Shown here: one piece after another, positions 38,874 through 62,157 of the stretch | Layout of the letters: every line of letters begins with the position of its first letter | Position numbering within the stretch: position 1 is the first letter of the stretch | The notes under the pieces: generated by a model | Told to the model about the DNA's origin: nothing | Databases searched by the model: none | The model's input: the letters and a program-made list of their open reading frames with translations, nothing else | Assembly (NCBI RefSeq): GCF_014281125.1 | Contig: NZ_JACOEA010000003.1 | Span: forward strand, 263,121-327,120 | Source: Lawsonibacter celer | GTDB taxonomy: Bacteria > Bacillota > Clostridia > Oscillospirales > Oscillospiraceae | DNA: 64,000 nt | Direction: 5' to 3' | Made by a program: the position numbers and the translations under genes

Positions 38874-39458
38874 TCACCCGGCCGGTCCCAGCAGGAGCGG
38901 CTGGAGCTGCTTTCCCGCCAGAGCGGCCTCAATCGTCTGCGTCACCTGGCCGAAATCCGCCACCACGGAGGTGGGCTTCCTCACCGGGTCATCCTGGCGG
39001 AACGGGACAAAATACACGTTCTTTTTGTCCAGCAAAGCCCCGATGTTTTTGGCAGAGCCGGCCAGGGCATCATTGGTGGATACGGCGATAACCAGGGGCC
39101 TGCCGTTGCGCAGGTGGGCCTTGGCCGCCATAGTCACCGCCGTGTCCGTAATCCCGCAGGCCAGCTTGGCCAGGGTGTTTCCCGTACAGGGACAGATGAC
39201 CAGCACATCCAGCAGCCCCTGGGGACCGATGGGCTCTGCCTTTGCAATGGTGTCCACCACCCGTCTGCCGCAGATGCGCTCCATCTCCCGGAGGAAATCA
39301 TGGGCGTTGCCGAAACGGGTGTCCGTGGCGGCGCTGGTTTCCGAGACAATAGGGACCACATCCTCAAACCTGGCGCGCACCTGTTCCAAGGCCGCCATGG
39401 CCCGGTCGTAAGTACAGAAGGACCCGCAGAAGGCGTATCCCACTCTGATTGCTTCCAT
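38874..39458 (-). CDS. dpaB: Dipicolinate synthase subunit B (SpoVFB)
   Basis: The 194-residue flavoprotein-like subunit reads VGYAFCGSFCTYDRAMAALE at the start, then VSETSAATDTRFG and VICPCTGNTLAKLACGITDT, all hallmarks of SpoVFB. With subunit A it oxidises dihydrodipicolinate to dipicolinic acid in the mother cell, giving spores heat resistance. Its start lies two bases after the dpaA stop codon, the usual coupled arrangement. This gene is intact although dpaA is interrupted, so it can only form an active enzyme if dpaA is rebuilt. Confidence 0.93.
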   Translation of the reverse strand: MEAIRVGYAFCGSFCTYDRAMAALEQVRARFEDVVPIVSETSAATDTRFGNAHDFLREMERICGRRVVDTIAKAEPIGPQGLLDVLVICPCTGNTLAKLACGITDTAVTMAAKAHLRNGRPLVIAVSTNDALAGSAKNIGALLDKKNVYFVPFRQDDPVRKPTSVVADFGQVTQTIEAALAGKQLQPLLLGPAG

Positions 39459-39460: not shown

Positions 39461-39601
39461 TTACACTCCCAACTCGTGCAGAATGTTATAAATGGTGTTT
39501 TTGATGCTTCTGCCCGCCGTCACCGGAGCCACCTTGCCGGGCAGGGACAGAGCCCAGATGACTCGTGTGCCCAGTCGGGCGGCGGCATCAAAGTCCACCC
39601 C
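39461..39601 (-). pseudogene. dpaA: dpaA, C-terminal fragment (interrupted gene)
   Basis: The minus-strand frame reads GVDFDAAARLGTRVIWALSL, then PGKVAPVTAGRSIKNTIYNI and ends LHELGV. This is the end of dipicolinate synthase subunit A, with the conserved LPGKVAPxTAG block. It is cut at the GG/CC core of an integrated element after the first codons; the preceding part of the protein (ending DLASKPGG) lies 6.4 kb away at 45994-46346. The stop is two bases from dpaB. Joining the two CC cores gives Lys-Pro-Gly-Gly-Val-Asp-Phe in one frame, the expected sequence of the family. It is labelled pseudogene only in the present arrangement. Confidence 0.88.
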
Positions 39602-39614
39602 GGCTGGTGTGGGA
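39600..39614. repeat. Element A left end: core CC plus 13-bp inverted-repeat arm
   Basis: CC (39600-39601) is followed by GGCTGGTGTGGGA (39602-39614). The exact complement of the arm, TCCCACACCAGCC, precedes CC at the other end (45981-45995). A non-palindromic two-base core flanked by symmetric arms is the layout of large serine recombinase sites. Confidence 0.85.
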
Positions 39615-39633
39615 AATGGCCGGACCGGCGACA

Positions 39634-39669
39634 AAAACAGCGTGGACGGGATCCCGTCCACGCTGTTTT
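39634..39669. terminator. Palindromic terminator after recombinase A
   Basis: AAAACAGCGTGGACGGGA and its exact complement form a 36-base palindrome four bases after the recombinase stop and 20 bases before the element end. It would insulate the recombinase from dpaB. Confidence 0.85.
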
Positions 39670-39673
39670 CCCC

Positions 39674-40978
39674 TTATCCCTCCTGTGCCCGAAACCGAAA
39701 CACCAACTCCAGCTCTCCCCGCTCCCCCACCAGGACGCGCTCCACCAGGGTAACCAGAGTCCTCCGCTCCGGCGGGTCAAAGGCGAGCAGCCGGCGGGCG
39801 GCCTGGACGGCGCGCTGGGGCTCCTCCGCTTTCTTTCGGCGGTTCGGGGCACAGACGAGCGCCTCCGGCCCGATTTCCGCACTCAGGCGGCGCAGCTGGT
39901 CGGTCAGCGCCTGCAGGACCGCCGCCTCCCGCACCCGGTGGGGCGTACACAGGCCCAGCCGTCCGGAGCGGCGGTACCGGCTACACACCAGCACCGCGCC
40001 GCCCGCGGTCCGCACACAGGCCATGGGCGCGCCGCAGCAGGCACAGAACACAAGGCCGGTGAGCAGCCGGCGCGCCCCGGCCGCCGGGGTATAGCTGTGG
40101 GTGCGCAGCAGTCGCTGCGCCTGGTCAAAATCCGCCTGGCTGACCAGGGGCGCGTGGGTGTTGGGGATGGTGACCCACTCCTCCGCGGACAACGTCCGCC
40201 GACGGTTCACCTTATACCCCAGCTTTTCCGTGCGCCGCTGGGTCAGGTGCCCGGCGTAGGTGGGGTTGGTGAGGATCCGGCGCACCATGGTGTCGCTCCA
40301 CACCCCGCCCCCCGCGCCGCTCCGGCAGGCCGCCGGGGTGGGCACCCCGGCCCGGGTAAGGGCCTTCGCGGTCCCCAGCACAGACTCCAGAGCCAGATAG
40401 GTCTGAAACACCCGTACCGCCACCCAGGCGGCGGTGGGGTCGGGCAGCAGATGTCCCTTTTGCGCCGGGTCCTTTTGGTAGCCCAGCGGAGGTGCGGACC
40501 CGATAAACAGCCCCTCCCGTCTGCGGGTGTCCAGGGCGGTGCGCACCTTGCGGGAGATATCCGCAGTATAAAAATCGTTTGCTGCGGCCAGGAAGGGCAG
40601 CGCCAGGCTGTTCCCAAGGCCGGACGCCGTATCCACCCCCTCGTTGACTGCGATGTAGCGCACCCCGTGGGTGGGGAAATAGACCTGATAATAGTAGAGG
40701 GTTCCGATCTGATCCCTGCCCAGGCGAGACAGATCCTTGGTGACCACCGTATCGATGCGCCGTGCCTCAATGTCCGCCAGCAGCCGCTGAAAAGCGGGCC
40801 GCTGGAAGGTTGTGCCCGACCACCCGTCGTCGGCGTACTCCGCCGCCGCCGTCCACCCCCGCTCTCGCACATAGCCCAGCAGAAAGGCCCGCTGGTTGGA
40901 GATACTCATGGATTCCTCCCGCCCATTCTCGTCGTCTCGGGACAGGCGGAGGTAAAGACCTACCCGCGGGGCGGCCAA
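39674..40978 (-). CDS. Large serine recombinase of element A
   Basis: The protein of about 434 residues starts MAAPRVGLYLRLSRDDENG, with catalytic Ser13 in the RLS motif. The resolvase domain has YADDGWSGTTFQRPAFQRLL and VVTKDLSRLGRDQIGTLYYY. A recombinase domain follows with PLGYQKDP and ILTNPTYAGHL, then a zinc ribbon with CACCGAPM and a second cysteine pair, and a basic C-terminus. It is of the TnpX/TndX kind. TTG 40978 with GGGAG 6 bases upstream is preferred; the longer frame to 41092 would add a low-complexity Ala/Gly tract lying over another small ORF. It is adjacent to one end of the element, as integrase genes usually are. Confidence 0.9.
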   Translation of the reverse strand: MAAPRVGLYLRLSRDDENGREESMSISNQRAFLLGYVRERGWTAAAEYADDGWSGTTFQRPAFQRLLADIEARRIDTVVTKDLSRLGRDQIGTLYYYQVYFPTHGVRYIAVNEGVDTASGLGNSLALPFLAAANDFYTADISRKVRTALDTRRREGLFIGSAPPLGYQKDPAQKGHLLPDPTAAWVAVRVFQTYLALESVLGTAKALTRAGVPTPAACRSGAGGGVWSDTMVRRILTNPTYAGHLTQRRTEKLGYKVNRRRTLSAEEWVTIPNTHAPLVSQADFDQAQRLLRTHSYTPAAGARRLLTGLVFCACCGAPMACVRTAGGAVLVCSRYRRSGRLGLCTPHRVREAAVLQALTDQLRRLSAEIGPEALVCAPNRRKKAEEPQRAVQAARRLLAFDPPERRTLVTLVERVLVGERGELELVFRFRAQEG

Positions 40979-41085
40979 GGCTGCTCCCGTTCCCCGTTTT
41001 CCAGCGCCAGCAGCTGCCGCAGCAGCTGTTCCAGCGTCTCCCCCTGCTCGGAAAAACGGCACGTCACCGGCACGTCGCGTTCCAT
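40960..41085 (-). CDS. Small TnpW-like ORF overlapping recombinase A
   Basis: The 41-codon frame starts MERDVPVTCRFSEQGETLEQ, continues LLRQLLALEN and ends PWPPRG with TAG. It overlaps the recombinase start by 19 bases, suggesting coupling. The pattern of a short beta strand, FSEQG and a helix rich in Leu and Glu resembles the TnpW protein of the tet(W) transposon here (VLTVSGFFKQGATDTAADKM at 60239-60427), which also precedes its recombinase. A purine-rich ribosome site (AAGGGGG) lies upstream. The function is unknown; a recombination-direction factor is a possibility. Confidence 0.55.
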   Translation of the reverse strand: MERDVPVTCRFSEQGETLEQLLRQLLALENGEREQPWPPRG

Positions 41086-41155
41086 TCCCCATCGCCCCCT
41101 TCTCCTGCTATGCTATTCTGCGGCGGGGACGGGTATGCCCGGCCGGCCCGGACAC

Positions 41156-41195
41156 AAAAAAGGGACCCCGGCCTGGCGGCCGGGGTCCCTTTTTT
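41156..41195. terminator. Strong bidirectional terminator after the AtuA operon
   Basis: AAAAAAGGGACCCCGGCC pairs perfectly with GGCCGGGGTCCCTTTTTT around TGGC, six bases after the last cargo gene. Confidence 0.95.
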
Positions 41196-41201
41196 CAAAA
41201 T

Positions 41202-41501
41202 TCAGATGTCCATGTTCAGCAGGTAAGAGCTCAGGCCCTTGCCGTGCATATCCACAGACAGGGAGCGGGTCACGCCGCCGCCCAGGGCGGCGTACATGAC
41301 GAAATTGAGGGCGTGGATGTTGGGTAGCTCATAGCGGACCACCTCGCCCTTGACCATGCCCTTGAAGTGCTCTTTTACCTTCTCGGCGGTGACCTTCTCC
41401 TTCAGGAGCTCAAAATCCTTGGGATCATAGGCGATGAGGGAGATATTGGAAATGTTGCCCTTGTCTCCGGTGCGGGAGTGGGCGATATCCCAGAGTTTCA
41501 T
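41202..41501 (-). CDS. AtuA-related small protein
   Basis: The 99-residue protein begins MKLWDIAHSRTGDKGNISNI, a sequence that in many AtuA-type proteins forms the C-terminal domain and in others a separate small subunit. It ends with LGGGVTRSLSVDMHGKGLSS. It lies 14 bases after the AtuA-family gene, so the two probably form one enzyme. The family's chemistry is poorly known; it is linked to catabolism of branched or hydroxylated acyl compounds. Confidence 0.85.
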   Translation of the reverse strand: MKLWDIAHSRTGDKGNISNISLIAYDPKDFELLKEKVTAEKVKEHFKGMVKGEVVRYELPNIHALNFVMYAALGGGVTRSLSVDMHGKGLSSYLLNMDI

Positions 41502-41515
41502 AGTGAAAAACCTCC

Positions 41516-42862
41516 TTAGACTTCAAAAATCTCAGCTTCGGGATGCACATCGTCGCGGTTGACCAGGATGGAGGCCACCGAGACGATGTCCCGGGTGCGC
41601 TTGACCGCGCCGCAGCCGCCGGCGGGGCCGTTGGTGTACAGGGCCTCCACCTCGTTGGCGATAATGTCGGCCTCGGCCTTGGTCTTGGCGCGGCCGGCCA
41701 CCCGGACGCGCACCTCGCTGGGCTCTTCACTATACTTGAAGTCGGGGTTCCAGTACAGGCTGTTGCAGCCGATGATATCGAACTTCAGCTCGTCAAACAC
41801 GTTGGGCGCAACCAGCTCCAGGCGCTCCTTCAGGATCTCCAGGGCCAGCTTGGCGCGGTTGACGCAGCCGGGGCCGCCGTAGCTGATTTCGCCGTCACCG
41901 ATAAAGCAGTCGCGGTAGCCGATGGAACACTTGAAGGTCTGGGTCTTTTCCTTGCCGGTGGCGCCCTCTACCTTGACCACATCCTTGGCGGTCTGGGTGA
42001 ACTTGACCTGCTTGAAGTTGGCCACCACGTCGGGGGTGAAGTAATTCTCCGGGTCGTGAATCTCGTAGACGATCTGCTCGGAGCAGGTCTCCACGGTGAC
42101 CATGCCGCCCGCCTCGGGAACCTTGGTCACAAAGAAGGAGCCGTCCTCGCTGATCTCAATGATGGGGAAGCCCAGGTGGCCCACGCCGGGCACATCCTTT
42201 TTGCCGGGCTCGGCAAAGTAGCCGCCGGTGACCTGTCCGCCGCACTCCAGCAGGTGGCCCACCATGGTGCCCTTGCCCAGCTTATCCCAGTCGTCCAGAG
42301 ACCAGCCGAACTCATGGATGATGGGGGCCATGAAGATGGCCGGGTCGGACACGCGGCCGGTGATGACCACGTCGGCGCCCAGATCCAGGGCCTTTAGAAT
42401 GCCCTCCACACCCATGTAGGCGTTGGCGGAGACAATCTCGCCGGGCAGCTTGGACAGCGGCTCATGGGTCTCCCACACCTCAGTGTCCATATACTTGTCG
42501 ATGACAGGCAACAGGTCGTCGCCGGTGACGCAGGCGATCTTCATGCCGCTGAGACCGTGCTTGCGGGCGATCTCCACGCACTTCTTGGCCGCGGCCTGGG
42601 GATTGGCGGAGCCCATGTTGGTGATGAGCTTCACCTTGTGCTCCCAGCACAGGGGTAGAGCCTTCTCCATGCGGTGCTCCAGCAGGCCGTTATAGCCCTT
42701 GGTGGGGTCCTTCAGCTTGGCCTGCTGGCCGATGGCAATGGTGCGCTCAGCCAAGCACTCATAGCTGATGTAATCCAGGTTGCCCTTTTCAATGAGCTCC
42801 AGGGAGGGCTCCAGGCGGTCACCAGCGTAGCCCGCGCCGCTGCCGATACGGATGCTTCTCAT
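41516..42862 (-). CDS. AtuA-family protein (DUF1446, acyclic terpene utilization type)
   Basis: The 448-residue protein begins MRSIRIGSGAGYAGDRLEPS, the signature of the AtuA/DUF1446 family. Conserved blocks include LDLGADVVITGRVSDPAIFM and YFAEPGKKDVPGVGHLGFPI. In Pseudomonas, AtuA is needed for citronellol and geraniol breakdown, but its reaction is not defined. In anaerobes the same family occurs with carboxylate transporters, as here. It forms an operon with the small subunit and the CitMHS-type transporter, behind a sigma-54 promoter. The substrate is unknown. Confidence 0.85.
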   Translation of the reverse strand: MRSIRIGSGAGYAGDRLEPSLELIEKGNLDYISYECLAERTIAIGQQAKLKDPTKGYNGLLEHRMEKALPLCWEHKVKLITNMGSANPQAAAKKCVEIARKHGLSGMKIACVTGDDLLPVIDKYMDTEVWETHEPLSKLPGEIVSANAYMGVEGILKALDLGADVVITGRVSDPAIFMAPIIHEFGWSLDDWDKLGKGTMVGHLLECGGQVTGGYFAEPGKKDVPGVGHLGFPIIEISEDGSFFVTKVPEAGGMVTVETCSEQIVYEIHDPENYFTPDVVANFKQVKFTQTAKDVVKVEGATGKEKTQTFKCSIGYRDCFIGDGEISYGGPGCVNRAKLALEILKERLELVAPNVFDELKFDIIGCNSLYWNPDFKYSEEPSEVRVRVAGRAKTKAEADIIANEVEALYTNGPAGGCGAVKRTRDIVSVASILVNRDDVHPEAEIFEV

Positions 42863-42901
42863 AATAAGACTTCCTTTCTCAAACGAAACCTAGATGTATG
42901 G

Positions 42902-44281
42902 TCAGATGGTGATCCCACCGGTAATGACGCCCACCACCAGCATAATGATGGTCAGCAGGAAAGCCGCGGGGATGGTCTTTTTCTGGTGCTCGCCCAGGTC
43001 CACACCGGCCAGGCCCACCAGCAGGAAGGTGGAGGCAGTCAGCGGAGAGACCGGGAAGCCCGTGGTCATCTGGCCCAGGATGGCGGCCTGACCCACGTTG
43101 ACGCCGGCCACGCCGAAGCCCTCGGCGGTCTGTGCCAGCACGGGCAGTACGCCGTAGTAGAAGGAATCGGGGTCAAAGAGCAGAGAGGCGGGCATGGCAA
43201 TCACGCCGGTGATAATGGGGAAGAAGCGGCCCAGAGACGCGGGAATCAGGGCGGTGAGGGCAGTGGCCATCTCGGTGATCATGCCGGTGCCCTTCATAAT
43301 GCCGGTAAAGCAGCCGGCGGCAAAGAGCACGGAGCACATCATCAGGCACTCCTTGGCATGGGCGTCCACACGGGCCTTGGACTCCTTGACGCTGGGGTAG
43401 TTAATGACAGTGGCCAGCACATAGAACACCATAAAGACCACGGCCGGGGCAAAGCCGGAGAACAGCAGGGACAGAATCGCAGCAAGAATGAGAATAATGT
43501 TCACAGGGAACAGCTTGGGCCGCAGCAGGGCCTTCTGCTCATCGGTGAGCTCAGCGGCGGTGACGTTGGCGCTGGCCAGAGCCACAGCACCGATACGCGC
43601 CTTCTCACGCTTGCCCATAAAGGCGGCGAACACAACCACACAGACCAGACCCACGATGACCGCGGGCAGCACGGGCATAAACAGATCCTTTACCACATCC
43701 ACCTGCAGGGCGGTGGCGGCGCGAATGGTGGGGCCGCCCCAGGGGAGGATATTCATGGTGCCGGCGGCCAGGGCCACAATGGTGGCCAAGGTGGTGCGCT
43801 TCATGCCCACCGCGTCGTACAGAGGCACCAGCGGAGGGATGCAGATCAGGAAGGTAACGGCGCCGGAGCCATCCAGATGGACGCACATGGCCAGAATGGC
43901 AGTGCCGATGGCGATCTTTACCGGATCGGTGCCCATAAACTTGGTAATGCCGCCGATGATGGGGCGGAAGGTACCCGCGTCGGTCAGAACACCGAAGAAC
44001 AGGATGGAGAAGATGAACATGACGCCGGTGGCGGCCACAGAGCCGATGCCGGAGGAGCCGGTGATCATCTTACCCAGGCTCTTGAAGTTGGCGACAAAGT
44101 CAATGACGCCGGGGGTCCCCTCTGCGGCCCCCTCCGGGACCACTGCGATGAAGAAGCAGGCGATAATGCCGGTAATGACGGGGACTGCGATCAGGGCCAC
44201 CAGGGGTGACGCCTTTTTGGTCATAATGAGCACGAGCATCACGATGACCGTTACAAATCCGAGTATTGCGAGTGCTGACAT
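42902..44281 (-). CDS. CitMHS-type carboxylate transporter
   Basis: The 459-residue membrane protein has about 12 segments and begins [20 protein letters not shown]. Features such as [20 protein letters not shown] and [16 protein letters not shown] match citrate-metal/proton symporters of the CitMHS family within the ion transporter superfamily. It should import the acid handled by the two AtuA-type proteins. ATG 44281 has AGGAGG; the longer frame to 44392 would cross the sigma-54 promoter. It is the first gene of the operon. Confidence 0.85.
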
Positions 44282-44344
44282 GTTGGTATTCCTCCTCTTA
44301 ACAAATTGCAACCAATTCCCAAAGCTGCGTACAGCCAAATTAAT

Positions 44345-44360
44345 TGCAATTTTCGTGCCA
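44345..44360 (-). promoter_or_regulatory. Sigma-54 promoter of the element A cargo operon
   Basis: The minus strand reads TGGCACGAAAATTGCA, a perfect match to TGGCACRNNNNTTGCW. The start of transcription would be near 44334, about 50 bases before the transporter ATG. Confidence 0.93.
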
Positions 44361-44446
44361 ACTTTTAAGCAGCCGCTCTGTTTTCCCCGCAATCCGCTGC
44401 GCCCCAGCTGGTTTATCTTCCTTTTCCCACAAAGGATAAGGCCGCT

Positions 44447-44472
44447 CCAATTTCCAGTTTTTTAGAAATTGG
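44447..44472. promoter_or_regulatory. Candidate activator site 1 (palindrome)
   Basis: CCAATTTC and GAAATTGG frame CAGTTTTTTA, giving a 26-base dyad about 90 bases upstream of the sigma-54 promoter. The inner 16 bases TTCCAGTTTTTTAGAA recur at 44545-44560. Confidence 0.65.
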
Positions 44473-44544
44473 GGCGGCCGATTTTCCCGAAAAAGGTCGG
44501 TGGTTCCTTGCCGTATCTGGTCTTTCTAAAATTCAAGAATACAA

Positions 44545-44560
44545 TTCCAGTTTTTTAGAA
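44545..44560. promoter_or_regulatory. Candidate activator site 2
   Basis: TTCCAGTTTTTTAGAA repeats the core of site 1 exactly, 98 bases further upstream and directly next to the stop codon of the activator gene. Two spaced copies are typical enhancer-like sites for hexameric sigma-54 activators. Confidence 0.65.
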
Positions 44561-45910
44561 TCATTTTTCATTTAATTTATTGTAGAGGCTGGCCAGGGAA
44601 ATCCCCAGCTCGGCGGCCGCTTTGCGCTTGCCCTCAGTGGTGGCTCCGTGACGGGCCAGGGCCTTGTCAATCTCCCGGCGTTCAAATTCCCGTACCCGCT
44701 GGGCCAGTGAGGCGGCCGCCGGCTTTTCTCCAAGACGGCTCAGGTCATCGGGCAGATTGTCCAGTCCAATCACCCCCTCCTGGGTCAGATAGGAGGAGAA
44801 CTCCAGCACGTTGCGCAGCTCCCGCACGTTCCCCGGCCAGGTGTGGCGGCACAGTGCCTGCATGGCCTCATCGGTAATCCGGAGGGTACGGTGCAGCTTC
44901 CGTGAGAGTCCGGCGAGCAGATCTCTAGCCAGAACAGGAATATCCTCCACCCGCTCCCGCAGCGGCGGGATCCGGATCGGGAAGGTATTCAGCCGGTAAT
45001 ACAGGTCGCTGCGGAATTTTCCGGCTGCCGCATAGGCGCCCAGGTCCGCGTTACAGGCGGCAATCACCCGCACATCCACCTCCGCCTCCTTTACCGCGCC
45101 CACCGGGCGGATCCTCCGCTCCTGCAGTGCGCGCAGCAGCTTGGACTGCAGCGCCACGTCCATCTCCGAAATCTCGTCCAGGAAGAGCGTGCCACCGTCG
45201 GCGGCCTCAAACAGGCCCATTTTCCCGCCCTTTTTTGCGCCGGTAAAGGCCCCCTCCGCATAGCCGAACAGCTCTGATTCCAAAATATTGGCGTTGAAGT
45301 TGGAGCAGTTGATGGCCACAAATACGCTGTCCCGCCGGGGGCTGGCGTTGTGAATCGCCTGGGCATAGAGCTCTTTGCCTGTTCCGCTCTCCGACTCCAG
45401 CAGGACCGTGGCGTCCGTGGCGGCAATCCTCTCCGCCCGCTGCTTAACCTGCCGGGAGGCGGGGCTGACCGCCGTAATGTCGTCAAAGGTATATCGGGCA
45501 CCATTCGCTTTGCTGATCGACCGCAGCACCTGGCGGCTGCGCAGCTCGATGGCCTCCAGCTCCTCCCGCGCTCGGTACGCGTCCTCCAGGAATGTGACCA
45601 CCGAAAGGCCGCCCACCAGGGTCCCCTCCTGATAGATCGGGTACATGTTGACAAAGTAAAAGTCCTGGATCTCTTTCCGGGTTAGGTGGAGAATAGGCTT
45701 CCCCTCCTCCAGCACGTCAGGCAGACGGGCGCCCGGGCGCAGGTCCCGCAGGCGGTAGCCCTCAATCGGCCCCACGTCCCCGCCGGCCTCATTGTTGAGG
45801 AATTCCCGATAGGCCTTATTGCCGAAGACAATTGTGCCCTCGGTGTCGATGATGGTAATCCCCTCCCGCATGGCGTCAAAAGCGCTGCGGGCATCCTGGC
45901 CGAGCTGCAT
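44561..45910 (-). CDS. Sigma-54-dependent activator with PAS sensor (RocR-like)
   Basis: The 449-residue protein has an N-terminal PAS domain (about 5-110, with GITIIDTEGTIVFGNKAYREF), a AAA+ domain and a C-terminal Fis-type helix-turn-helix (KRKAAAELGISLASLYNKL). Walker A reads SESGTGKE (173-180), Ser replacing the usual first Gly. The sigma-54 loop is the normal GAFTGA (220-225). It probably senses the cargo substrate and activates the -24/-12 promoter at 44345, binding the paired sites at 44447 and 44545. It lies at the right end of element A, and its own sigma-A promoter is inside the element. Confidence 0.92.
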   Translation of the reverse strand: MQLGQDARSAFDAMREGITIIDTEGTIVFGNKAYREFLNNEAGGDVGPIEGYRLRDLRPGARLPDVLEEGKPILHLTRKEIQDFYFVNMYPIYQEGTLVGGLSVVTFLEDAYRAREELEAIELRSRQVLRSISKANGARYTFDDITAVSPASRQVKQRAERIAATDATVLLESESGTGKELYAQAIHNASPRRDSVFVAINCSNFNANILESELFGYAEGAFTGAKKGGKMGLFEAADGGTLFLDEISEMDVALQSKLLRALQERRIRPVGAVKEAEVDVRVIAACNADLGAYAAAGKFRSDLYYRLNTFPIRIPPLRERVEDIPVLARDLLAGLSRKLHRTLRITDEAMQALCRHTWPGNVRELRNVLEFSSYLTQEGVIGLDNLPDDLSRLGEKPAAASLAQRVREFERREIDKALARHGATTEGKRKAAAELGISLASLYNKLNEK

Positions 45911-45936
45911 AGGACCCTCTCCTCTCTGTGCCTCCT

Positions 45937-45965
45937 ATTGTATCGGAGTGGGCAGCCAAGTGCAA
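45937..45965 (-). promoter_or_regulatory. Sigma-A promoter of the RocR-like activator
   Basis: On the minus strand TTGCAC (45960-45965) and TACAAT (45937-45942) are 17 bases apart. The -35 box is only 16 bases inside the element end. Confidence 0.7.
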
Positions 45966-45980
45966 TCCTTTTATCATAAA

Positions 45981-45995
45981 TCCCACACCAGCCCC
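45981..45995. repeat. Element A right end: 13-bp inverted-repeat arm plus core CC
   Basis: TCCCACACCAGCC (45981-45993) is followed by CC (45994-45995) and then dpaA coding sequence. It is the exact inverse of the left arm at 39602-39614. Confidence 0.85.
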
Positions 45996-46346
45996 GCCCG
46001 GCTTTGATGCCAGGTCGATGACCAGGCTCCCTGGGCGCAGGTCCTCCAGTTCCTCTTCCCCCAGCAGGCGGACGGGCGCGGTGTTGATGACCAGGTCGCT
46101 GCGGCACAGACGGCCCGCCAGCTCCCCCATGGGCACGCTCTCATAGCCAAAGGCCTCCGCCCAGGCCAGATCCGAGCACTTCCTGGCAGCCACCGCCACC
46201 CGCGCCCCCAGGGCGGCAAACCGGTTGGCGAGCACCTTTCCCAGCCGGCCATAGCCCAGGATGAGCACGTTGGCCTCCTGCAGGGTGATGGGCAGCTCTT
46301 CCATGGCGATCTGAACGGCCCCCTCTGCGGTAGGTACCGCCTTAGC
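45994..46346 (-). pseudogene. dpaA: dpaA, middle fragment (interrupted on both sides)
   Basis: The frame reads AVPTAEGAVQIAMEELPITL, then the NAD(P)-binding VLILGYGRLGKVLANRFAAL, VAVAARKCSDLAWAEAFGYE, and ends GSLVIDLASKPGG at the element A core. These are the central and Rossmann parts of dipicolinate synthase subunit A. The C-terminal part continues at 39601 after removal of element A. On the other side the frame runs into the 3' end of a second serine recombinase gene within a few codons, and the N-terminal roughly 120 residues are not found in this window. An ATG within the fragment (46304) would start only a piece. Confidence 0.85.
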
Positions 46347-47748
46347 GATAACAGCCCGGCCTGGGGAGCACGATCGGATCCCGCCGCCCCCAAAGCCGGA
46401 GCTCCAGGCGGTCCGGGTAGACCACCGCCCGCTCCACCGCCGCGGCCAGCTCCCGCTCTCCGGCCGCCGGGGCGGCGGAGGTCTGCGCCGCCCGCTTGTC
46501 CAGGCGGGTCAGCTCCCGCTCGTACTTTTCCCGCGCCAGCGCCAGCTCCTCCCGGGTAATGGCCCCCGCCAGATAGGCGTCCACCGCCCGGGTGCGGCGT
46601 GCCACCAGACGGGCCCGCCGCTCCGCCAGATGGCCGGCGGCGTCCTCCTCCGGTGGCGCGGGCCGTTCCCCCAGCGCCTGCGCCGCGCAGGCGGTCAGCA
46701 TTTCGTGCTCCACCGGGGCCAGAGTGCAGCGCTCCTCCCCGGTCCGGCCGCCGCAGGTCCAGGTGTGGACGGCGCTGCCGTCCCTCCGGCGGCGGATACG
46801 GGAGGTCAGGCGGCCGCCGCACAGGCCGCAAGTCAGCTTGCCGGAGCACCAGTAGCGGCCGGAATAGCGGCTGCCCTCTCCCCGCGCCGCCGCCCGCCGG
46901 GCCAGCTCGGCCTGAACCGCCTCCCAGACGGGCCGCTCCACAATGGCCGGGTGGTGGTCCCGCAGATAGATCTGTTCCTCCATGCCCCGGTTTTCCACCT
47001 TCCGGTGGGTGAGATAGTCGGTAGTAATGTACTTCTTCTGCAGCAGATCGCCCACATACTTCTCGTTGCGCAGCAACCGCAGCACCATGGTGGAGGACCA
47101 GGCAGCCGCCCGGGGGGGCTGCACCCCCTCCTCATTCAGCTCCCGGGCAATGACATAGGTCCCCTTGCCCTCCTGAAGAAACCGCCGGTAGACCTCCCGC
47201 ACCACTCCGGCCTCCCCCTCCCGGATGGACAGCCGTCCCTTTTGAGTGGCATAGCCGTAGGTGCTGTCGTTGCCGAAGGCCACCCCCGCCTCCATCCGCC
47301 GCAGCTGCCCCCACTTTACCCGCTGGGAGGTCTTGCGTGACTCCTCCTGTGCCATGCTGGCCATGATGGTCAGCCGCAGCTCCCCGTCGTTGTCCCTGGT
47401 GTCGATATGGTCGGAGAGGAAGCGTACGCCCACTCCTATCTGTAATAATTTTCTGGTATATTCCAATGTGTCAACGGTATTTCGGGCAAAACGGGAGACC
47501 TCCTTGGTCAGGATCAGGTCCAGCCGGCCGTTTTCCGCATCCCGGAGCAGCCGCTGAAACGCCTGCCTGCGGCGGGTGCTGGTGCCCGAAACCCCCTCGT
47601 CCGCATAGACCCCCGCCAGGCTCCATCCCGGGTGTGCGTCAATGTAGTCCTGAAAATACCGCTGCTGGCTGCGCAGGGAATTGGCCTGGTCCTCCCGGTC
47701 GGTGGACACCCGGCAGTAGGCCGCCACCCGCAGCTTTGCCTGTTCCAC
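46342..47748 (-). CDS. Large serine recombinase of a second element (element B)
   Basis: The protein of about 468 residues begins VEQAKLRVAAYCRVSTDRED, with catalytic Ser15. It continues YADEGVSGTSTRRRQAFQRL and LTKEVSRFARNTVDTLEYTR, a recombinase domain (WSSTMVLRLLRNEKYVGDLL), a zinc ribbon (CSGKLTCGLCGGRL with a later CGG and C) and a coiled C-terminus. GTG 47748 has GGGGG 8 bases upstream; the frame to 47904 runs over the divergent promoter. The stop codon lies at the junction with the dpaA middle fragment, so this enzyme probably moves the DNA that separates that fragment from the N-terminal part of dpaA. Confidence 0.9.
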   Translation of the reverse strand: MEQAKLRVAAYCRVSTDREDQANSLRSQQRYFQDYIDAHPGWSLAGVYADEGVSGTSTRRRQAFQRLLRDAENGRLDLILTKEVSRFARNTVDTLEYTRKLLQIGVGVRFLSDHIDTRDNDGELRLTIMASMAQEESRKTSQRVKWGQLRRMEAGVAFGNDSTYGYATQKGRLSIREGEAGVVREVYRRFLQEGKGTYVIARELNEEGVQPPRAAAWSSTMVLRLLRNEKYVGDLLQKKYITTDYLTHRKVENRGMEEQIYLRDHHPAIVERPVWEAVQAELARRAAARGEGSRYSGRYWCSGKLTCGLCGGRLTSRIRRRRDGSAVHTWTCGGRTGEERCTLAPVEHEMLTACAAQALGERPAPPEEDAAGHLAERRARLVARRTRAVDAYLAGAITREELALAREKYERELTRLDKRAAQTSAAPAAGERELAAAVERAVVYPDRLELRLWGRRDPIVLPRPGCYR

Positions 47749-47798
47749 GGCGCATACCCCCTTTCCACTCCAGAACCTATGCGCCCAGGGGAAAGGAA

Positions 47799-47827
47799 TT
47801 GCCTCCGGGGACAAAAAACGGTATAAT
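47799..47827 (+). promoter_or_regulatory. Promoter of the TetR-family regulator gene
   Basis: TTGCCT and TATAAT are 17 bases apart, 42 bases before the ATG. Confidence 0.7.
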
Positions 47828-47869
47828 ACGATATCATACGCTTCACACAGAGGAGGAGGACGGGGACTT

Positions 47870-48457
47870 ATGGCAAGGAAATCCGCCCGCAATACCCGGG
47901 GCAAGATTGTCAGCGCTGCCTGGAAGCTCTTTTATGAGCAGGGGTACGAGCACACCACGGTGGAGGAAATCATCGATCTGTCTCGCACCTCCAAGGGTTC
48001 CTTCTACCACTATTTTGACGGCAAGGACGCCCTGCTGAGCACCCTGAGCGACCTGTTCGACGAAAAGTATGAGGCCCTGCGGGAGACCATGGACCCAGCT
48101 ATGCCCGCCATGGAGCAGCTTCTTTTTCTCAACAGTGAGCTTTTCGGCATGATCGAGGACAGCGTCTCCTTGGAGCTGCTCTCCCGGCTGCTCTCCACCC
48201 AGCTGGTGACCAGCGGTGAAAAGCACCTATTGGACCACAAGCGCACCTACTACCGCCTGCTGCGCCGCATTATTGCCGACGGGCAGTCCTCCGGACAGTT
48301 CTCCTCCAAACGGAGTGTCAATGAGCTGGTTAAGCTCTACGCCCTGTGCGAGCGCGCCCTTCTGTATGACTGGTGCCTGTGCGGCGGGGAATATAACCTG
48401 CGGGATTACGCCGCTCAGGTTCTGCCCCATTTTTTGAGCGGTTTCCTTCCAGGCTAG
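47870..48457 (+). CDS. TetR/AcrR-family transcriptional regulator
   Basis: The 195-residue protein has an N-terminal helix-turn-helix of the TetR class (AAWKLFYEQGYEHTTVEEII and SRTSKGSFYHYFDGKDALL, about residues 15-58) and an all-helical ligand domain. Such proteins usually repress a nearby gene until a ligand binds. A 46-base perfect palindrome lies directly downstream, overlapping the -35 of the Na+ symporter gene, and is the obvious operator candidate. It is divergent from recombinase B. Confidence 0.88.
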   Translation: MARKSARNTRGKIVSAAWKLFYEQGYEHTTVEEIIDLSRTSKGSFYHYFDGKDALLSTLSDLFDEKYEALRETMDPAMPAMEQLLFLNSELFGMIEDSVSLELLSRLLSTQLVTSGEKHLLDHKRTYYRLLRRIIADGQSSGQFSSKRSVNELVKLYALCERALLYDWCLCGGEYNLRDYAAQVLPHFLSGFLPG

Positions 48458-48512
48458 CCTCCTAAAATCCGTCTTGTCTTTATCCCTTCCTTTTTCTTAT
48501 ATTTTCTTCCAT

Positions 48513-48558
48513 AATACAGAACAGTGTATAGACTATAGTCTATACACTGTTCTGTATT
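48513..48558. promoter_or_regulatory. 46-base perfect palindrome, likely operator (or terminator plus operator)
   Basis: Two 23-base arms meet without a spacer; the centre is TATAGACTATAGTCTATA. The right end overlaps the first two bases of the -35 box of the next promoter. It is the only such structure between the TetR gene and the symporter gene. Confidence 0.75.
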
Positions 48559-48585
48559 GCGTTCTATTTTTTGTCGTGATATGAT
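48557..48585 (+). promoter_or_regulatory. Promoter of the Na+ symporter gene
   Basis: TTGCGT (48557-48562) and TATGAT (48580-48585) are 17 bases apart; the leader to the ATG is about 80 bases. Confidence 0.65.
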
Positions 48586-48670
48586 AACGGATAATTCCGA
48601 TTTCCCGCCGTCTGCGCTTTGTGTGGGGCGCATCCGGTCAGAGAAATCTGTCTTTGGGGAGGTTCTCTAT

Positions 48671-50206
48671 ATGACCACAGCACAAATCTGTATCCTTGCG
48701 GCCATTGTGATCTATCTGGTGGCAATGGTCCTTGTCGGCGTCTATTTCAGCCGGAAAGGCAGCGGCGACTCCTCCGACCAGTTCTATCTGGGCGGGCGCG
48801 GCCTGGGCCCCATCGTGACCGCCATGAGCGCGGAGGCCTCCGATATGAGCAGCTATCTGCTGATGGGGCTGCCCGGCCTGGCCTATCTGTGCGGTGTGGC
48901 CGAGGTGGGCTGGACCGCCATCGGCCTTGCGGTAGGTACTTATCTCAACTGGCTGATTGTGGCCAAGCGTCTGCGCCGCTACTCCGACCGTCTGGGCGCC
49001 ATTACTCTCCCGGACTTCTTCTCCCGCCGATACCGGGACAACCGCCGGGCGCTCTCCTGCATCGCCGCCCTGATTATCCTAATTTTCTTTGTCCCCTATA
49101 CCGCCTCGGGCTTCAAGGCGGTGGGCACGCTGTTCAACAGTCTGTTCGGCTGGGAGTATCACACCTCTATGATCATCGGCGCCATTGTCATCATCGGCTA
49201 CACGGTGCTGGGCGGCTTCCTGGCCGTATCCACCACGGATCTGATCCAGAGCGTTGTGATGACCATCGCCCTGATCGTCATCGTGATCTTCGGCGTGCAG
49301 CAGGCGGGCGGCTGGGACGTGGTGGCGGAAAACGCCAAGTCCCTGCCCGGCTATCTGAATATGACCCAGGGGTATAACGCGGCGGCCGGGACGGCCTCCT
49401 CCTTCGGCGGGCTGAGCATTGTTTCCACCCTGGCCTGGGGTCTGGGCTACTTCGGCATGCCCCACATCCTCCTGCGCTTTATGGCCATCCGCCACGAGGA
49501 TGAGCTCAAGACCTCCCGCCGCATTGCCTCCATCTGGGTGGTCATCTCCATGCTCATTGCGATTTTGATCGGCATCATCGGCTACAGCGTCTCTGCCGCC
49601 GGAAAAATCCCCTTCCTCTCCTCCAGCGCCGAGTCTGAGACCATTATTGTCCGCCTGTCTGACCTGATGAGCCAGCACGGCGTGCTCCTTGCTCTCATGG
49701 CCGGCGTGGTGCTGGCCGGCATTCTGGCCAGTACCATGTCCACTGCGGACTCCCAGCTGCTGGCAGCCGCCTCCAGCGTGTCCCAGGACCTGATGCAGGA
49801 CTTTTTCCATGTAAAGCTCAGCGCCAAGGCCGCCATGCTGGCTGCCCGCGCCACAGTAATTATTATCGCCGTCATCGGCATTCTTCTGGCCTGGGATCCC
49901 AACAGCTCGGTCTTCAAAATCGTCTCCTTTGCCTGGGCGGGTTTCGGCGCCGCCTTTGGCCCGGTCATGCTCATGTCTCTGTTCTGGAAGCGGAGCAACA
50001 AGTGGGGCGCCCTGGCCGGCATGGTCTCCGGCGGCGCCATGGTGTTTATCTGGAAGTACGGCGTCGCCCGCCTCGGTGGAGCCTGGGCCATTTATGAGCT
50101 GCTGCCCGCTTTTCTGGTTGCCTGCGCAGCGATCGTGGTGGTCTCCCTCCTCACCGCACCCCCGTCGAAAGAGGTCGTCCGCGAATTCGAGTCTGTGCGG
50201 CGCTGA
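48671..50206 (+). CDS. Sodium:solute symporter, PutP (sodium/proline) type
   Basis: The 511-residue protein has about 13 membrane segments. DQFYLGGRGLGPIVTAMSAE, ASDMSSYLLMGLPGLAYLCG and the SSS-family helix around AGILASTMSTADSQLLAAAS, with Ser/Thr Na+ ligands, all match the PutP group. It should import proline or a similar amino or betaine compound with Na+. ATG 48671 follows GGGGAGG by about 9 bases. The gene is probably controlled by the upstream TetR protein through the palindrome. It ends at a strong terminator. Confidence 0.9.
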   Translation: MTTAQICILAAIVIYLVAMVLVGVYFSRKGSGDSSDQFYLGGRGLGPIVTAMSAEASDMSSYLLMGLPGLAYLCGVAEVGWTAIGLAVGTYLNWLIVAKRLRRYSDRLGAITLPDFFSRRYRDNRRALSCIAALIILIFFVPYTASGFKAVGTLFNSLFGWEYHTSMIIGAIVIIGYTVLGGFLAVSTTDLIQSVVMTIALIVIVIFGVQQAGGWDVVAENAKSLPGYLNMTQGYNAAAGTASSFGGLSIVSTLAWGLGYFGMPHILLRFMAIRHEDELKTSRRIASIWVVISMLIAILIGIIGYSVSAAGKIPFLSSSAESETIIVRLSDLMSQHGVLLALMAGVVLAGILASTMSTADSQLLAAASSVSQDLMQDFFHVKLSAKAAMLAARATVIIIAVIGILLAWDPNSSVFKIVSFAWAGFGAAFGPVMLMSLFWKRSNKWGALAGMVSGGAMVFIWKYGVARLGGAWAIYELLPAFLVACAAIVVVSLLTAPPSKEVVREFESVRR

Positions 50207-50215
50207 TATATCTGC

Positions 50216-50260
50216 AAAAAGCCTCCCGGTGCGGACAATCGCCGCACCGGGGGGCTTTTA
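50216..50260. terminator. Bidirectional terminator
   Basis: AAAAAGCC and CCCGGTGCGG pair with CCGCACCGGGGGGCTTTTA between the convergent symporter and membrane-protein genes. Confidence 0.85.
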
Positions 50261-50262
50261 CG

Positions 50263-50676
50263 CTATTTTTCGCCCTGCTCTCCCAGCCATGGGTCACGCG
50301 CTTTCTGTACAATGCAGACCACCTCGTAGCGCATGGCCCGGCGCATCCGGGTACGCCGAGTAGTGAGCCAGATCAACAAAAAGCCCAGCAGGGCCAGGAT
50401 TCCGCCGGAGAGCAGGCGCTCTGCCCCCGCGCCACCCCGCTCCAGGAGCATACCGATCACAAAGAACAGTGGCACCACCAGATAGGGCAGCCACTCGCCG
50501 CGGGCTTTTTTCCAGGGCTTGGCGGGTTTGAGCTCCACCACATCGCCCCGCTTGGCCTTTTCCAAGTTTTCCGCAACGCAGCGCTCCTTACCGGGCTCCC
50601 CGTTTTCCCAGAGGACAGCCTCGGCGTAGCCCTGAGTGATAACCCGGGTAATTGTTGCCATAACAACAGCGGGCAT
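50263..50676 (-). CDS. Two-helix membrane protein, RseC-like
   Basis: The 137-residue protein has an N-terminal beta-rich part (ITRVITQGYAEAVLW, then RGDVVELKP), two membrane segments (about 65-80 and 88-105) and a basic/acidic cytoplasmic tail. The layout resembles RseC/RnfX-associated proteins, but the N-terminal cysteine cluster of that family is absent. ATG 50676 has AAAGGAG 8 bases upstream. It follows the atoE 3' part in the same direction after a hairpin. The function is unknown. Confidence 0.6.
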   Translation of the reverse strand: MPAVVMATITRVITQGYAEAVLWENGEPGKERCVAENLEKAKRGDVVELKPAKPWKKARGEWLPYLVVPLFFVIGMLLERGGAGAERLLSGGILALLGFLLIWLTTRRTRMRRAMRYEVVCIVQKARDPWLGEQGEK

Positions 50677-50702
50677 AAGCGCGCTCCTTTCTTTCGGTGC
50701 GT

Positions 50703-50732
50703 CAAAGGGAGAACCAAACGGTTCTCCCTTTG
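50703..50732. terminator. Hairpin after atoE
   Basis: CAAAGGGAGAACC pairs perfectly with GGTTCTCCCTTTG around AAAC, 28 bases after the atoE stop codon on the minus strand. Confidence 0.7.
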
Positions 50733-50760
50733 ATAGTTTTACTTTGATTCAGAGAGGTGC

Positions 50761-51556
50761 TCAGATAAACATGGGGATAAAATACAGGCCCAGGCAGACA
50801 ATCACTACCCAGAATACACAGATAAAGGCCATAAAGCCCCACACATCCTTGAGCTTCATACCGACTACGGACAGAGCCGGGATGACATACAGAGGCTGGA
50901 GCAGGTTGGTACACTCGTCGCCATAGACAAAGGCGTTCAGGCAGTTGACCAAGTTAGTACCAGGGATAGCCTTGGCAGCCTCCACAATAAGGGGGCCCTG
51001 GACGGTGAACTGACCGCCTTGAGAGGGGATGAACAGATTTACGACACAGGCGGACAGGAAGGAGAAGATGGGCATAGTCTGGGCGTTGGCCACGGAGATC
51101 ATGGCGTTGATCAGCACAGAGCCCAAGCCGCCGTCAATGTACATCATACCCATGATGGCGCCGTAGAAGGGGAACTGGAGCATGACGTCGGTGGCCAGGT
51201 GCATGGAGTTTTTGTGGGCCTCAATCCACTGATGAGGCTCGGGGAACAGGAAGCAGTTAATGCCTACAAACAGGAAGATAACCAGGTTCATGTTCAGCGC
51301 GCCCAGCAGGCCCTTGGTTGCCACAGAGTACACAATGTAGACGAAGATGAAAGCGCCGGTAATCCACATAAAGGGCTTAAAGGCATTCATGTGCTCGGCA
51401 GCGTTTTCGGGCTTCTTGGTGCTCTTGTAGGACTCCGGCACCACATCGGCTTCGGTGGCAATGTCGCCCAGCTCCACCAGCTCATCCTTGCCGGGCTGAG
51501 TGAAAAGCACCAGCAGGATGAATACCACGGCCAGGACAACCCAGAGGATAATGCTC
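50761..51556 (-). pseudogene. atoE-like short-chain fatty acid transporter, C-terminal part (split gene)
   Basis: The frame reads SIILWVVLAVVFILLVLFTQ and holds six or so membrane segments with YIDGGLGSVLINAMISVANA and FIPSQGGQFTVQGPLIVEAA, typical of the AtoE/short-chain fatty acid transporter family, but it covers only about 265 residues of some 460. The first 200 residues are at 62234-62842 on the same strand, separated by the tet(W) transposon. A TTG inside the transposon end (51579) opens the frame but has no clear ribosome site. The intact protein would carry acetoacetate or butyrate, matching the neighbouring hydroxyacyl-CoA dehydrogenase and keto-acid cleavage genes. Confidence 0.88.
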
Positions 51557-51575
51557 ATGTACGGTAAGGAAGCAA
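51557..51575. repeat. Left inverted repeat of the tet(W) transposon
   Basis: ATGTACGGTAAGGAAGCAA matches the inverted right end (ATGTGCGATAAAGAAGTAA) at 15 of 19 positions, and all four differences are transitions. Confidence 0.75.
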
Positions 51576-51640
51576 GCAACCGAAAACAAGAGATAGACCG
51601 CCAGCACTACACTATTCCGAACCAAAGACCAAAAGATAAG

Positions 51641-51680
51641 CATTGTGGGAAAATCTAAACTTTTGGATTTTCCTACAATG
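51641..51680. terminator. Hairpin inside the left transposon end
   Basis: CATTGTGGGAAAATC pairs with GATTTTCCTACAATG over 14 of 15 bases around TAAACTTTTG. Confidence 0.5.
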
Positions 51681-51772
51681 CCAACTACGGCGGAATCCCT
51701 CCCACTCCTTATATCTTTCTGTATACATTGAATTTGTATTTAGTAAAATGCAGACAACACCACGGATCGGCT

Positions 51773-51796
51773 TTTGGTTGGACAATTCCAACCAAA
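51773..51796. repeat. Short perfect inverted repeat upstream of tet(W)
   Basis: TTTGGTTGGA and TCCAACCAAA flank CAAT, about 90 bases before the tet(W) -35 box. It may be a protein site or a terminator without a T run. Confidence 0.5.
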
Positions 51797-51885
51797 CACC
51801 ACAGCAGACAGCAGAAAACATTCTGAACGCTAGGAAGCCGGTATGATTGTTACATATAAGGGGAAGAAAAATTTCTTTTAGGTAC

Positions 51886-51914
51886 TTGCTTTCCTAAAAC
51901 TGATGTGATACAAT
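51886..51914 (+). promoter_or_regulatory. tet(W) promoter
   Basis: TTGCTT and TACAAT are 17 bases apart and precede the leader peptide by 28 bases. Confidence 0.8.
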
Positions 51915-51942
51915 GATTTAATCCAGAAAAGGAGTAAAAAAT

Positions 51943-51966
51943 ATGCGGCAAGGTATTCTTAAATAA
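51943..51966 (+). CDS. tet(W) leader peptide
   Basis: ATG 51943 opens a seven-codon frame MRQGILK with AAAGGAG upstream. Its codons 4-7 lie in GTATTCTTAAA (51953-51963), which is exactly complementary to TTTAAGAATAC at 52039-52049, so ribosome position on the leader can change RNA folding. This is the attenuation layout known for tet(M)-type genes. Confidence 0.75.
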   Translation: MRQGILK

Positions 51967-52133
51967 AACTATAATCAAATAGTGGGAACAAAGGATTATG
52001 ATAGCTCCTTTTGTAGGGGCTTAGTTTTTTGTACCCAATTTAAGAATACTTTTGCCTTATCAATTTTGACATATCCCCAAAAACAGCAATCACAAACAGG
52101 TGTATGCTGTATATGTGTATGTCCGCAACTTAT

Positions 52134-52173
52134 AATCCCCAGTGGTAAAAGTATTTTACTGCTGGGGATTTTT
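52134..52173 (+). terminator. Attenuator before tet(W)
   Basis: AATCCCCAG with GTAAAA pairs with TTTTAC and CTGGGGATT, followed by TTT, 34 bases before the tet(W) ATG. It would stop most transcripts unless antibiotic slows ribosomes on the leader. Confidence 0.8.
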
Positions 52174-52207
52174 ATGCCCTTTGGGGCTGTAAAGGGAGGA
52201 CAATCAC

Positions 52208-54127: not shown

Positions 54128-54177
54128 AGATACATAATCGTCAAGACGGCAACAATCAGAAGTTATGGAGGGTAACA

Positions 54178-55744: not shown

Positions 55745-55780
55745 AAACTGAATACCAGCCGCCACCGACGCGGCCAGCGA

Positions 55781-60427: not shown

Positions 60428-60484
60428 CCGACCATAAAGAAGCAGATTTGACGCTTTTGCCGCTATACAGACAGCCGCCCCATG

Positions 60485-62149: not shown

Positions 62150-62157
62150 CCGCCCGA

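Follow-up and report, generated by a model that had tools for sequence, protein, structure and literature searches.

The dipicolinate synthase gene dpaA of Lawsonibacter celer is interrupted at two points by probable skin-type elements

How can a bacterium complete a spore when the gene for one subunit of its dipicolinate synthase lies in pieces? Dipicolinic acid is central to the heat resistance of spores, and the Oscillospiraceae include many gut bacteria with sporulation genes. The question is raised by dpaA of one member of this family, Lawsonibacter celer, in a stretch of 64,000 nucleotides (contig NZ_JACOEA010000003.1, positions 263,121 to 327,120; the whole stretch is referred to as the window). 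The original prediction held that dpaA is split there by a single skin-like element of 6.4 kb. We find two interruptions, and we consider it probable (roughly 0.77, judged from sequence comparison) that both gaps are domesticated intervening elements that are cut out by their own large serine recombinases in the mother cell during sporulation, restoring dpaA. Related genomes and loci are referred to by G and L numbers, respectively.

Two interruptions of dpaA in the window

The following features define the pieces of dpaA and its partner gene dpaB:

38874..39458, minus strand: intact dpaB (dipicolinate synthase subunit B), following immediately on dpaA (TIGR02852 spore_dpaB, 253.7 bits, cut-off 229)
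39461..39601, minus strand: C-terminal piece of dpaA, from VDF to the stop codon (tblastn with the intact DpaA of L002, residues 243-290, 79%)
39600..39601, unstranded: site-B core dinucleotide at the low border, CC on the plus strand and GG on the coding strand (sequence; borders of 10 relatives agree)
45994..46334, minus strand: middle piece of dpaA, bounded by cores B and A (tblastn, residues 127-245, 64%; 113 codons without a stop)
46333..46334, unstranded: site-A core dinucleotide, GG on the plus strand and CC of a proline codon on the coding strand (sequence; same codon in 17 relatives)

The elements that separate these pieces are bounded as follows:

39602..45995, unstranded: site-B intervening element, 6394 bases including one copy of the core (sequence)
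39602..39614, plus strand: arm GGCTGGTGTGGGA (sequence)
45981..45993, plus strand: arm TCCCACACCAGCC, the exact inverse of GGCTGGTGTGGGA (sequence)
39674..41092, minus strand: large serine recombinase of the site-B family (Resolvase, Recombinase and Zn_ribbon_recom; Pfam, tree), its true start probably lying further inside
46335..64000, unstranded: visible part of the site-A intervening element, at least 17.7 kb (window sequence; complete two-element layout in the relative G004)
46342..47748, minus strand: large serine recombinase, site-A family; 7 bases separate the core from its stop codon (Pfam, tree)

In the order of transcription on the minus strand, the middle piece (46334-45994) is followed by a gap of 6394 bases, the C-terminal piece (39601-39461) and dpaB (39458-38874). 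As originally predicted, the two pieces of dpaA lie on the same strand 6.4 kb apart, and each border carries CC followed inward by an arm or its exact inverse. The cores on the plus strand are at 39600-39601 and 45994-45995, the two ends of the 6.4-kb element, and for two 13-mers at fixed positions the chance probability of an inverse match is ~4^-13. The sequence also agreed with the earlier description in that joining at CC in silico keeps the frame and gives Lys-Pro-Gly-Gly-Val-Asp-Phe, and in that a large serine recombinase gene (39674-41092) lies near one border, inside the element. Site B falls in the second glycine codon of KPGG^VDF and site A in the proline codon of AV^PTAEG.

The claim that removal of the 6.4-kb element restores dpaA did not hold. 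The middle piece had been placed at 45994-46346; its start is correct, while its true end is at 46334, 12 bases earlier, where it meets a second core (46333-46334) and a second element. Because the middle piece ends at this core and the stop codon of a second serine recombinase lies 7 bases beyond it, dpaA is cut twice, and the 6.4-kb element is only one of two. When the intact DpaA of L002 was compared with the whole window by tblastn, residues 127-290 were matched and the N-terminal part was not found. Some 130 N-terminal codons, together with the far border of the site-A element, are beyond the window edge. At that border the N-terminal piece would be expected to end in GGTA-CC, followed by an arm like TACCGCCTTAGCGATA. 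In the window, dpaA is thus interrupted at two points, sites A and B.

The same cuts in related genomes

We scanned genome contigs with dpaB and obtained 80 dpaB-anchored loci, the best of them (77-80%) from Flavonifractor, Pseudoflavonifractor and their kin. DpaA was matched over its full length at 64 of these and was split at A and/or B at 13; the remaining 3 were not scorable owing to contig ends or Ns, which also led us to reject L033, L067 and L075 as splits. A sample of 300 genomes of the family added at least nine split genomes, and in one of these (G072) the N-terminal piece alone was found. G022 and G188 were rejected, as DpaA runs through. Split dpaA therefore occurs in at least 22 other Oscillospiraceae genomes, at site A in 17, at site B in 10 and at both in 5 (G001, G002, G003, G004 and G015). 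Isolates are among them: Flavonifractor plautii ATCC 29863, Pseudoflavonifractor gallinarum DSM 107456, Flintibacter muris DSM 110149 and Clostridium viride DSM 6836. No second full-length DpaA was found in the 22 split relatives among the matches listed, many of these genomes being incomplete drafts.

In G004 the N-terminal, middle and C-terminal pieces follow one another on one strand of one contig, separated by gaps of 12.9 and 5.2 kb, so that the layout partly visible in the window is seen here in full. The smallest gap with both borders on one contig is 2.7 kb (G015, site A); others extend up to 43 kb (G038), and one reaches 261 kb. The latter is found in G005 (Flavonifractor sp. An10; contig 10, 132776-393805), where the pieces lie on one strand with matching site-A arms, and it could be a single giant element or one that has grown through nested insertions.

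The cuts fall at the same positions throughout. The site-A core is the CC of the proline codon in AVPTAEG at 17 of 17 left borders, which were located by a short pattern near the expected place, and at 17 of 17 right borders. The site-B borders of 10 relatives agree with the GG of the second glycine in KPGGVDF, although in G273 the two sides have 11 bases in common and the cut is less sharply positioned. The inward arms are inverted repeats that differ among lineages.

Each site has its own recombinase family. Relatives of the site-A recombinase (46-66% identity in the best segments measured) occur in every site-A element except that of G072, mostly at the border or within ~3 kb of it (~6 kb in G030), and a relative of the site-B recombinase is present in every site-B element. 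In a tree of 69 rows the site-A genes group together with support, joined by a single outsider from cotJC of G090, and the site-B genes form another such group; two of the rows complete genes otherwise represented by one half, other_L120 that of G013 site A and other_L118 that of G015 site B. Recombinase distances follow DpaA distances at both sites (Mantel r 0.47, p 0.004 for site A; r 0.62, p 0.0002 for site B), and the elements therefore seem to have been inherited largely with their hosts, with some exchange. Shadow frames aside, the recombinase is the only protein group widely common to the elements (28 elements, as compared to 5 for the next group of its own), and no other protein common to all elements appeared among the 40 top clusters listed. 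Outside these genomes, the site-B recombinase of the window is 100% identical over 87% of its length to a metagenome protein of 411 amino acids (P0121) found on three contigs.

The pieces themselves remain open. In the 22 genomes and the window, N-terminal pieces reach the start codon, middle pieces have 113 codons and C-terminal pieces reach the stop codon, with no internal stop or frameshift. The ratio of nonsynonymous to synonymous substitution rates (dN/dS) in nine split-split pairs was 0.08 in two (G012/G013 and G001/G002, the latter with both sites split and alike arms) and 0.11, 0.13, 0.17, 0.18, 0.32 (window/G004), 0.37 and 0.49 in the others; it was 0.13-0.36 in five split-intact pairs and 0.15-0.36 in six intact pairs. 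On these ratios the dpaA pieces are kept under purifying selection. A plainly decayed gene, the outcome in close relatives that the original prediction had named as damaging, is not their picture, and a decayed gene was rejected on account of the open pieces and mostly low dN/dS.

A rejoined gene could be compared with natural sequences in one relative. When the F. plautii pieces were joined in silico at site A, four metagenome proteins matched the product at 99-100% over 290 amino acids, with identical residues around the junction. They are encoded on 12, 2, 10 and 2 contigs (26 in total), the longest of 99,987 bases. The predicted F. plautii junction therefore exists in nature, arising either by excision or in element-free strains. 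A further metagenome DpaA, P0006 (two contigs), resembles F. plautii up to site A and Pseudoflavonifractor capillosus after it; it is either a chimera that switches at the attachment site or a misassembly there.

Mother-cell genes, promoter signals and competing explanations

Three features at the recombinase genes of the window may bear on the control of excision:

40960..41085, minus strand: small open reading frame (ORF) of 41 amino acids overlapping the recombinase ORF, a candidate excision helper (translation; similar ORFs at the site-B recombinases of 7 relatives)
41109..41138, minus strand: two GCATA boxes (41134-41138 and 41109-41113) upstream of the site-B recombinase operon, a possible mother-cell -10 (sequence)
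47778..47782, minus strand: GCATA box upstream of the site-A recombinase (sequence)

CATA is the -10 signature common to sigma-E and sigma-K. It was found 20-110 bases upstream of 22 of 27 site-A and site-B recombinase operons (mean 7.7 and maximum 15 in 500 shuffles), and GCATA upstream of 16 (mean 2.7, maximum 7). The counts should be read with the knowledge that the pattern was noticed before counting, that the 27 operons are not independent, that several operon starts were chosen by hand, that the upstream windows of G090A and G273B were shifted by hand and that the site-B gene of G015 was left out. Control recombinases had CATA in 6 of 14 cases (p 0.017 against the site-A and site-B set) and GCATA in 1 of 14 (p 0.002); 26 controls were entered and 14 had a recognizable start, L171, L174 and L175 of these lying in cotJC elements. 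Upstream of dpaA in intact relatives, CACC is often followed after ~15 bases by GNATA, which looks sigma-K-like by eye, and CATA occurs in 42 of 86. The site-A and site-B recombinases may accordingly be expressed under a mother-cell sigma factor.

Other sporulation genes in the 22 genomes are also broken, and the compartment in which they act appears to matter. cotJC is split in 9 of the 18 genomes with a manganese-catalase match, at three different places and with different recombinases (L174, L252-L263); each split locus has a serine-recombinase match, the weakest (29%) in G015. This gene was tested because a recombinase led to it, which makes it a biased pick, and some of the manganese-catalase matches are paralogues, that of G273 being uncertain. 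sigK is apparently split in 8 of 22, six times at an ENE motif, which we take to be the known skin site, and twice near residue 60 (G195 and G248; L233 and L234). Both pieces of sigK were seen in three of these genomes and a single piece in five; the profile used (TIGR02846) responds to sigE as well and scored below its cut-off in every one of the 22, and sigK of the other 14 was taken to be intact. spoIVA is split in 3 of 20 at SIHM^IRADIE, with both pieces present in G001 and G005 and one in G003. By comparison, the forespore genes spoVAC (0 of 21), gpr (0 of 22) and spoVAD (1 of 22, G006) are almost never split, and recA is split in 0 of 22. Candidate splits of spoVAD in G003 and recA in G001 were rejected as partial matches at contig ends, and yabG had no match in any of the 22 genomes and was uninformative as an additional mother-cell gene.

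In sum, mother-cell genes are split in 20 of 60 cases and forespore genes in 1 of 65 (Fisher p ~1e-6, calculated without correction for the kinship of the genomes); with spoIVA and sigK and without cotJC the comparison is still 11 of 42 against 1 of 87. The compartment labels are those in general use. Four genomes (G001, G002, G003 and G015) have four breaks each.

A number of results weigh against excision in the mother cell. Two split pairs have higher dN/dS (G003/G009, 0.49; window/G195, 0.37), and the dN of the middle and C-terminal dpaA pieces relative to dpaB has a median of 1.22 in split genomes (77 pairs) and 1.40 for the window (32) as compared to 1.03 in intact ones (169). Selection on split dpaA may thus be mildly relaxed, yet these values do not approach neutral decay. 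The F. plautii rejoined alleles may represent element-free strains rather than excised DNA, and no rejoined allele of the window's own species was seen among the 120 best matches (best 79%). Protein clustering of the elements yielded no universal directionality factor. Recombinases in spoIVA, sigK and cotJC have GCATA in 4 of 18 cases, and those in spoIVA look sigma-A-like by eye; one of these 18 entries, the cotJC of G015, is in the wrong frame, and a nineteenth (spoVAD of G006) yielded none. The spoVAD of G006, a metagenome-assembled genome of Candidatus Flavonifractor merdigallinarum, is a forespore gene apparently split at MAP^AAYD. Its pieces lie on different contigs (the end of L231, and L232), a serine recombinase adjoins one of them, and it is the sole exception to the mother-cell rule. 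Finally, gpr of G005, which encodes a protease of small acid-soluble spore proteins (contig 12, 27458-28163; L267), is in three frames, through sequencing error or decay of a forespore gene.

Some of these observations would fit a different explanation, in which ordinary genomic islands have attached at conserved positions of dpaA, leaving a dead gene in lineages that are losing sporulation. In its favour are the general tendency of large serine recombinases to target conserved genes, the faster change of the dpaA pieces relative to dpaB, the pair at 0.49 and the state of gpr in G005. However, dead genes would not be expected to lack stops and frameshifts in 22 genomes and the window, nor to show a dN/dS of 0.08 between sister genomes split at both sites. 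Sporulation genes are also retained in these lineages (spoIVA in 20, spoVAC in 21, and spoVAD and gpr in all 22), and a recombinase of the matching family stays in every element but that of G072 whereas cargo changes. We therefore regard this explanation as unlikely.

Another possibility is that the elements leave and re-enter the chromosome at random in growing cells, as a phase switch or population reservoir, in which case some cells would carry an intact and heritable dpaA without mother-cell control. That element-free chromosomes persist is shown by the F. plautii rejoined alleles on 26 contigs and by intact close species such as L015; in addition, the spoIVA recombinases appear to be driven by sigma-A, and the yin element of Clostridium botulinum was found excised at all time points (available part of PMC10747680). 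Random excision does not, however, predict the bias towards mother-cell genes, nor the CATA boxes at the site-A and site-B recombinases, and we consider it unlikely too, slightly more so than the first alternative. An assembly artefact was rejected in view of the occurrence of the splits in 22 genomes, several named isolates included.

Excision in the mother cell would proceed in the following way. The recombinases, expressed under a mother-cell sigma factor, would attach to the inverted arms, cleave at the central dinucleotide and ligate the flanks precisely, and two such excisions would place an in-frame dpaA in front of dpaB. The gene would be restored only in the terminal mother cell. The spore would keep the unexcised genome, and the element with its cargo would therefore be inherited. 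Over time cargo would be replaced while the recombinase, arms and dpaA pieces would be kept, because a lineage unable to rejoin dpaA would make poor spores. The small ORF noted above cannot be taken as a proven directionality factor in this scheme: such ORFs overlap many recombinase starts and were not found at others, and alike ORFs stand at the L183 and L191 recombinases, outside dpaA.

We also think it somewhat better than an even chance that Oscillospiraceae practice a multi-gene genome rearrangement restricted to the mother cell, in which dpaA (two sites), cotJC (three), sigK (two) and spoIVA (one) are kept broken in the germline by dedicated recombinase elements able to house catabolic operons and are put back together in the doomed mother cell. 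If so, this would be a bacterial counterpart of soma-specific DNA elimination, and completion of a spore would require several chromosome cuts, each by its own recombinase. Metabolic islands could persist by residing in a gene that only a terminal cell requires. Annotation would wrongly score such genomes as lacking dpaA, cotJC or spoIVA, and sites A and B of dpaA would offer ready-made pairs of recombinase and attachment site.

Cargo and comparison with known systems

The elements of the window carry the following cargo, the first four genes in the site-B element and the others in the site-A element:

41202..41501, minus strand: AtuA ferredoxin-like protein (PF23544, 130 bits)
41516..42862, minus strand: AtuA family protein (PF07287, 538 bits)
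42902..44392, minus strand: CitMHS-type transporter (TIGR00784, 388 bits)
44561..45910, minus strand: sigma-54-dependent regulator with a PAS domain (PF00158, PF13188)
47870..48457, plus strand: TetR-family regulator, alike in element A of G003 (PF00440)
48557..50206, plus strand: sodium/solute symporter, matched in element A of G003 (TIGR00813, 262 bits)
62907..63836, minus strand: 3-hydroxyacyl-CoA dehydrogenase (PF02737, PF00725)

Among relatives we scanned 10 proteins of the site-A element of F. plautii, 8 of G004, 5 of G090 and 5 of G013. F. plautii carries a thiolase, two proteins of enoyl-CoA hydratase type, a CoA transferase, a hydroxyacyl-CoA dehydrogenase, a beta-keto acid cleavage enzyme and transporters; G004 carries a lacto-N-biose phosphorylase with transport and sugar-enzyme genes, and in G090 a CoA ligase and a CitMHS transporter accompany subunits of a 2-hydroxyacyl-CoA dehydratase. 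Dynamin-like proteins and a viral recombinase domain of YqaJ-like type are encoded in the G013 element, and therefore not all elements are catabolic. The cargo in the scanned elements is mostly catabolic and not phage.

A mobilizable element is nested in the site-A element at window positions 51560-62230, within a TIGR00366-type transporter gene. It encodes an EF-G-like protein with Pfam EF-G domains (52208-54127), presumably a tetracycline resistance gene of the ribosomal-protection type. It also has a relaxase-like ORF (56607-58259, recognized by eye), a Phage_rep_org_N protein (58645-59388) and a DUF4368 serine recombinase (60539-62149) that is 100% identical to L167 of G090 over 522 columns. 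This nested tet element is possibly kin of IME_Rho_tet (PMC12904643). Large serine recombinases are abundant in the related genomes, with 9 to 59 matches per genome in 7 genomes.

Prophage and transposon identities were considered for the dpaA elements. Profile searches (NCBIfam and Pfam) found no phage genes among the four cargo ORFs of the site-B element. In the viral contigs searched there was no relative of the site-B recombinase and the 28-base joint of its predicted circle was absent, while four carry 36-44% relatives of the site-A recombinase. A prophage is accordingly rejected for site B by the absence of phage cargo and of viral relatives of its recombinase, and for site A with respect to the visible part only. 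The original prediction had called the recombinase TnpX-like. Neither dpaA recombinase of the window matched DUF4368, which we take as the mark of the TnpX type, at E<=0.001, and in the tree, which holds no named TnpX sequence, both lie far from the DUF4368-bearing recombinase at 60539 in the tet-gene element. That label was dropped, and a Tn4451/TnpX-like transposon was rejected on the same two grounds.

What remains is the likeness to skin. The dpaA elements split a sporulation gene precisely, have att-like ends, allow in-frame rejoining in silico, carry their own recombinase and leave the split gene under selection. They are likely of the skin type, a classification based on anatomy and selection, with excision as its prediction. 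The original proposal of a skin-like element in dpaA thus gained from the common codon in 22 genomes, the conserved recombinases, purifying selection and the rejoined alleles of one relative, and lost its assumption that a single 6.4-kb excision suffices.

Precedents include skin, the SP-beta prophage in spsM, vfbin in spoVFB, gin in gerE and yin in yabG (available parts of PMC5595907, PMC6957869 and PMC10747680). Among the matches listed from open-licence PMC titles and abstract starts, the scope of our search as opposed to subscription papers and preprints, no interrupted dpaA, spoIVA or cotJC was reported, and within that scope intervening elements in this lineage were likewise not encountered. 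A survey of sporulation genes in metagenome-assembled genomes of Firmicutes (PMC11536998) names spoVFA once in its available part, from which "interrupted", "skin" and "split" are absent.

Like the dpaA elements, skin in sigK of Bacillus and Clostridioides difficile has a serine recombinase inside an element that splits a mother-cell gene and allows in-frame rejoining. Here, in contrast, the target is dpaA, there are two sites with two recombinase families, and the cargo of the scanned elements is mostly catabolic and not prophage-like; the two sigK-skin recombinases in our tree belong to another group than those of dpaA. The vfbin element of Bacillus weihenstephanensis KBAB4 is close in its target, since it splits spoVFB (dpaB), the partner gene of the same enzyme, and its recombinase is expressed in sporulation (available parts of PMC5595907, PMC10747680 and PMC6957869). 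It differs in the subunit and in the class of Firmicutes: in our case dpaB is intact and dpaA is split, twice in six genomes including the window.

The gin element in gerE of Bacillus cereus ATCC 10987 is, like ours, a non-phage intervening element with a serine recombinase (GirC), and it has a directionality factor, GirX (available part of PMC5595907). It affects one gene only, whereas here several mother-cell genes are hit per genome, and the counterpart of GirX is at most the candidate small ORF. The fdxN element of heterocyst-forming cyanobacteria offers another developmental excision recombinase, XisF, which is the best NCBIfam match of the site-B recombinase. Its score of 108 bits is far under the curated cut-off of 375, and both the organism and the cell type are different. 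Set beside these systems, what is new is the choice of dpaA, its interruption at two independent sites by elements with two recombinase families, the catabolic nature of the cargo, and the number of mother-cell genes hit per genome, which is several.

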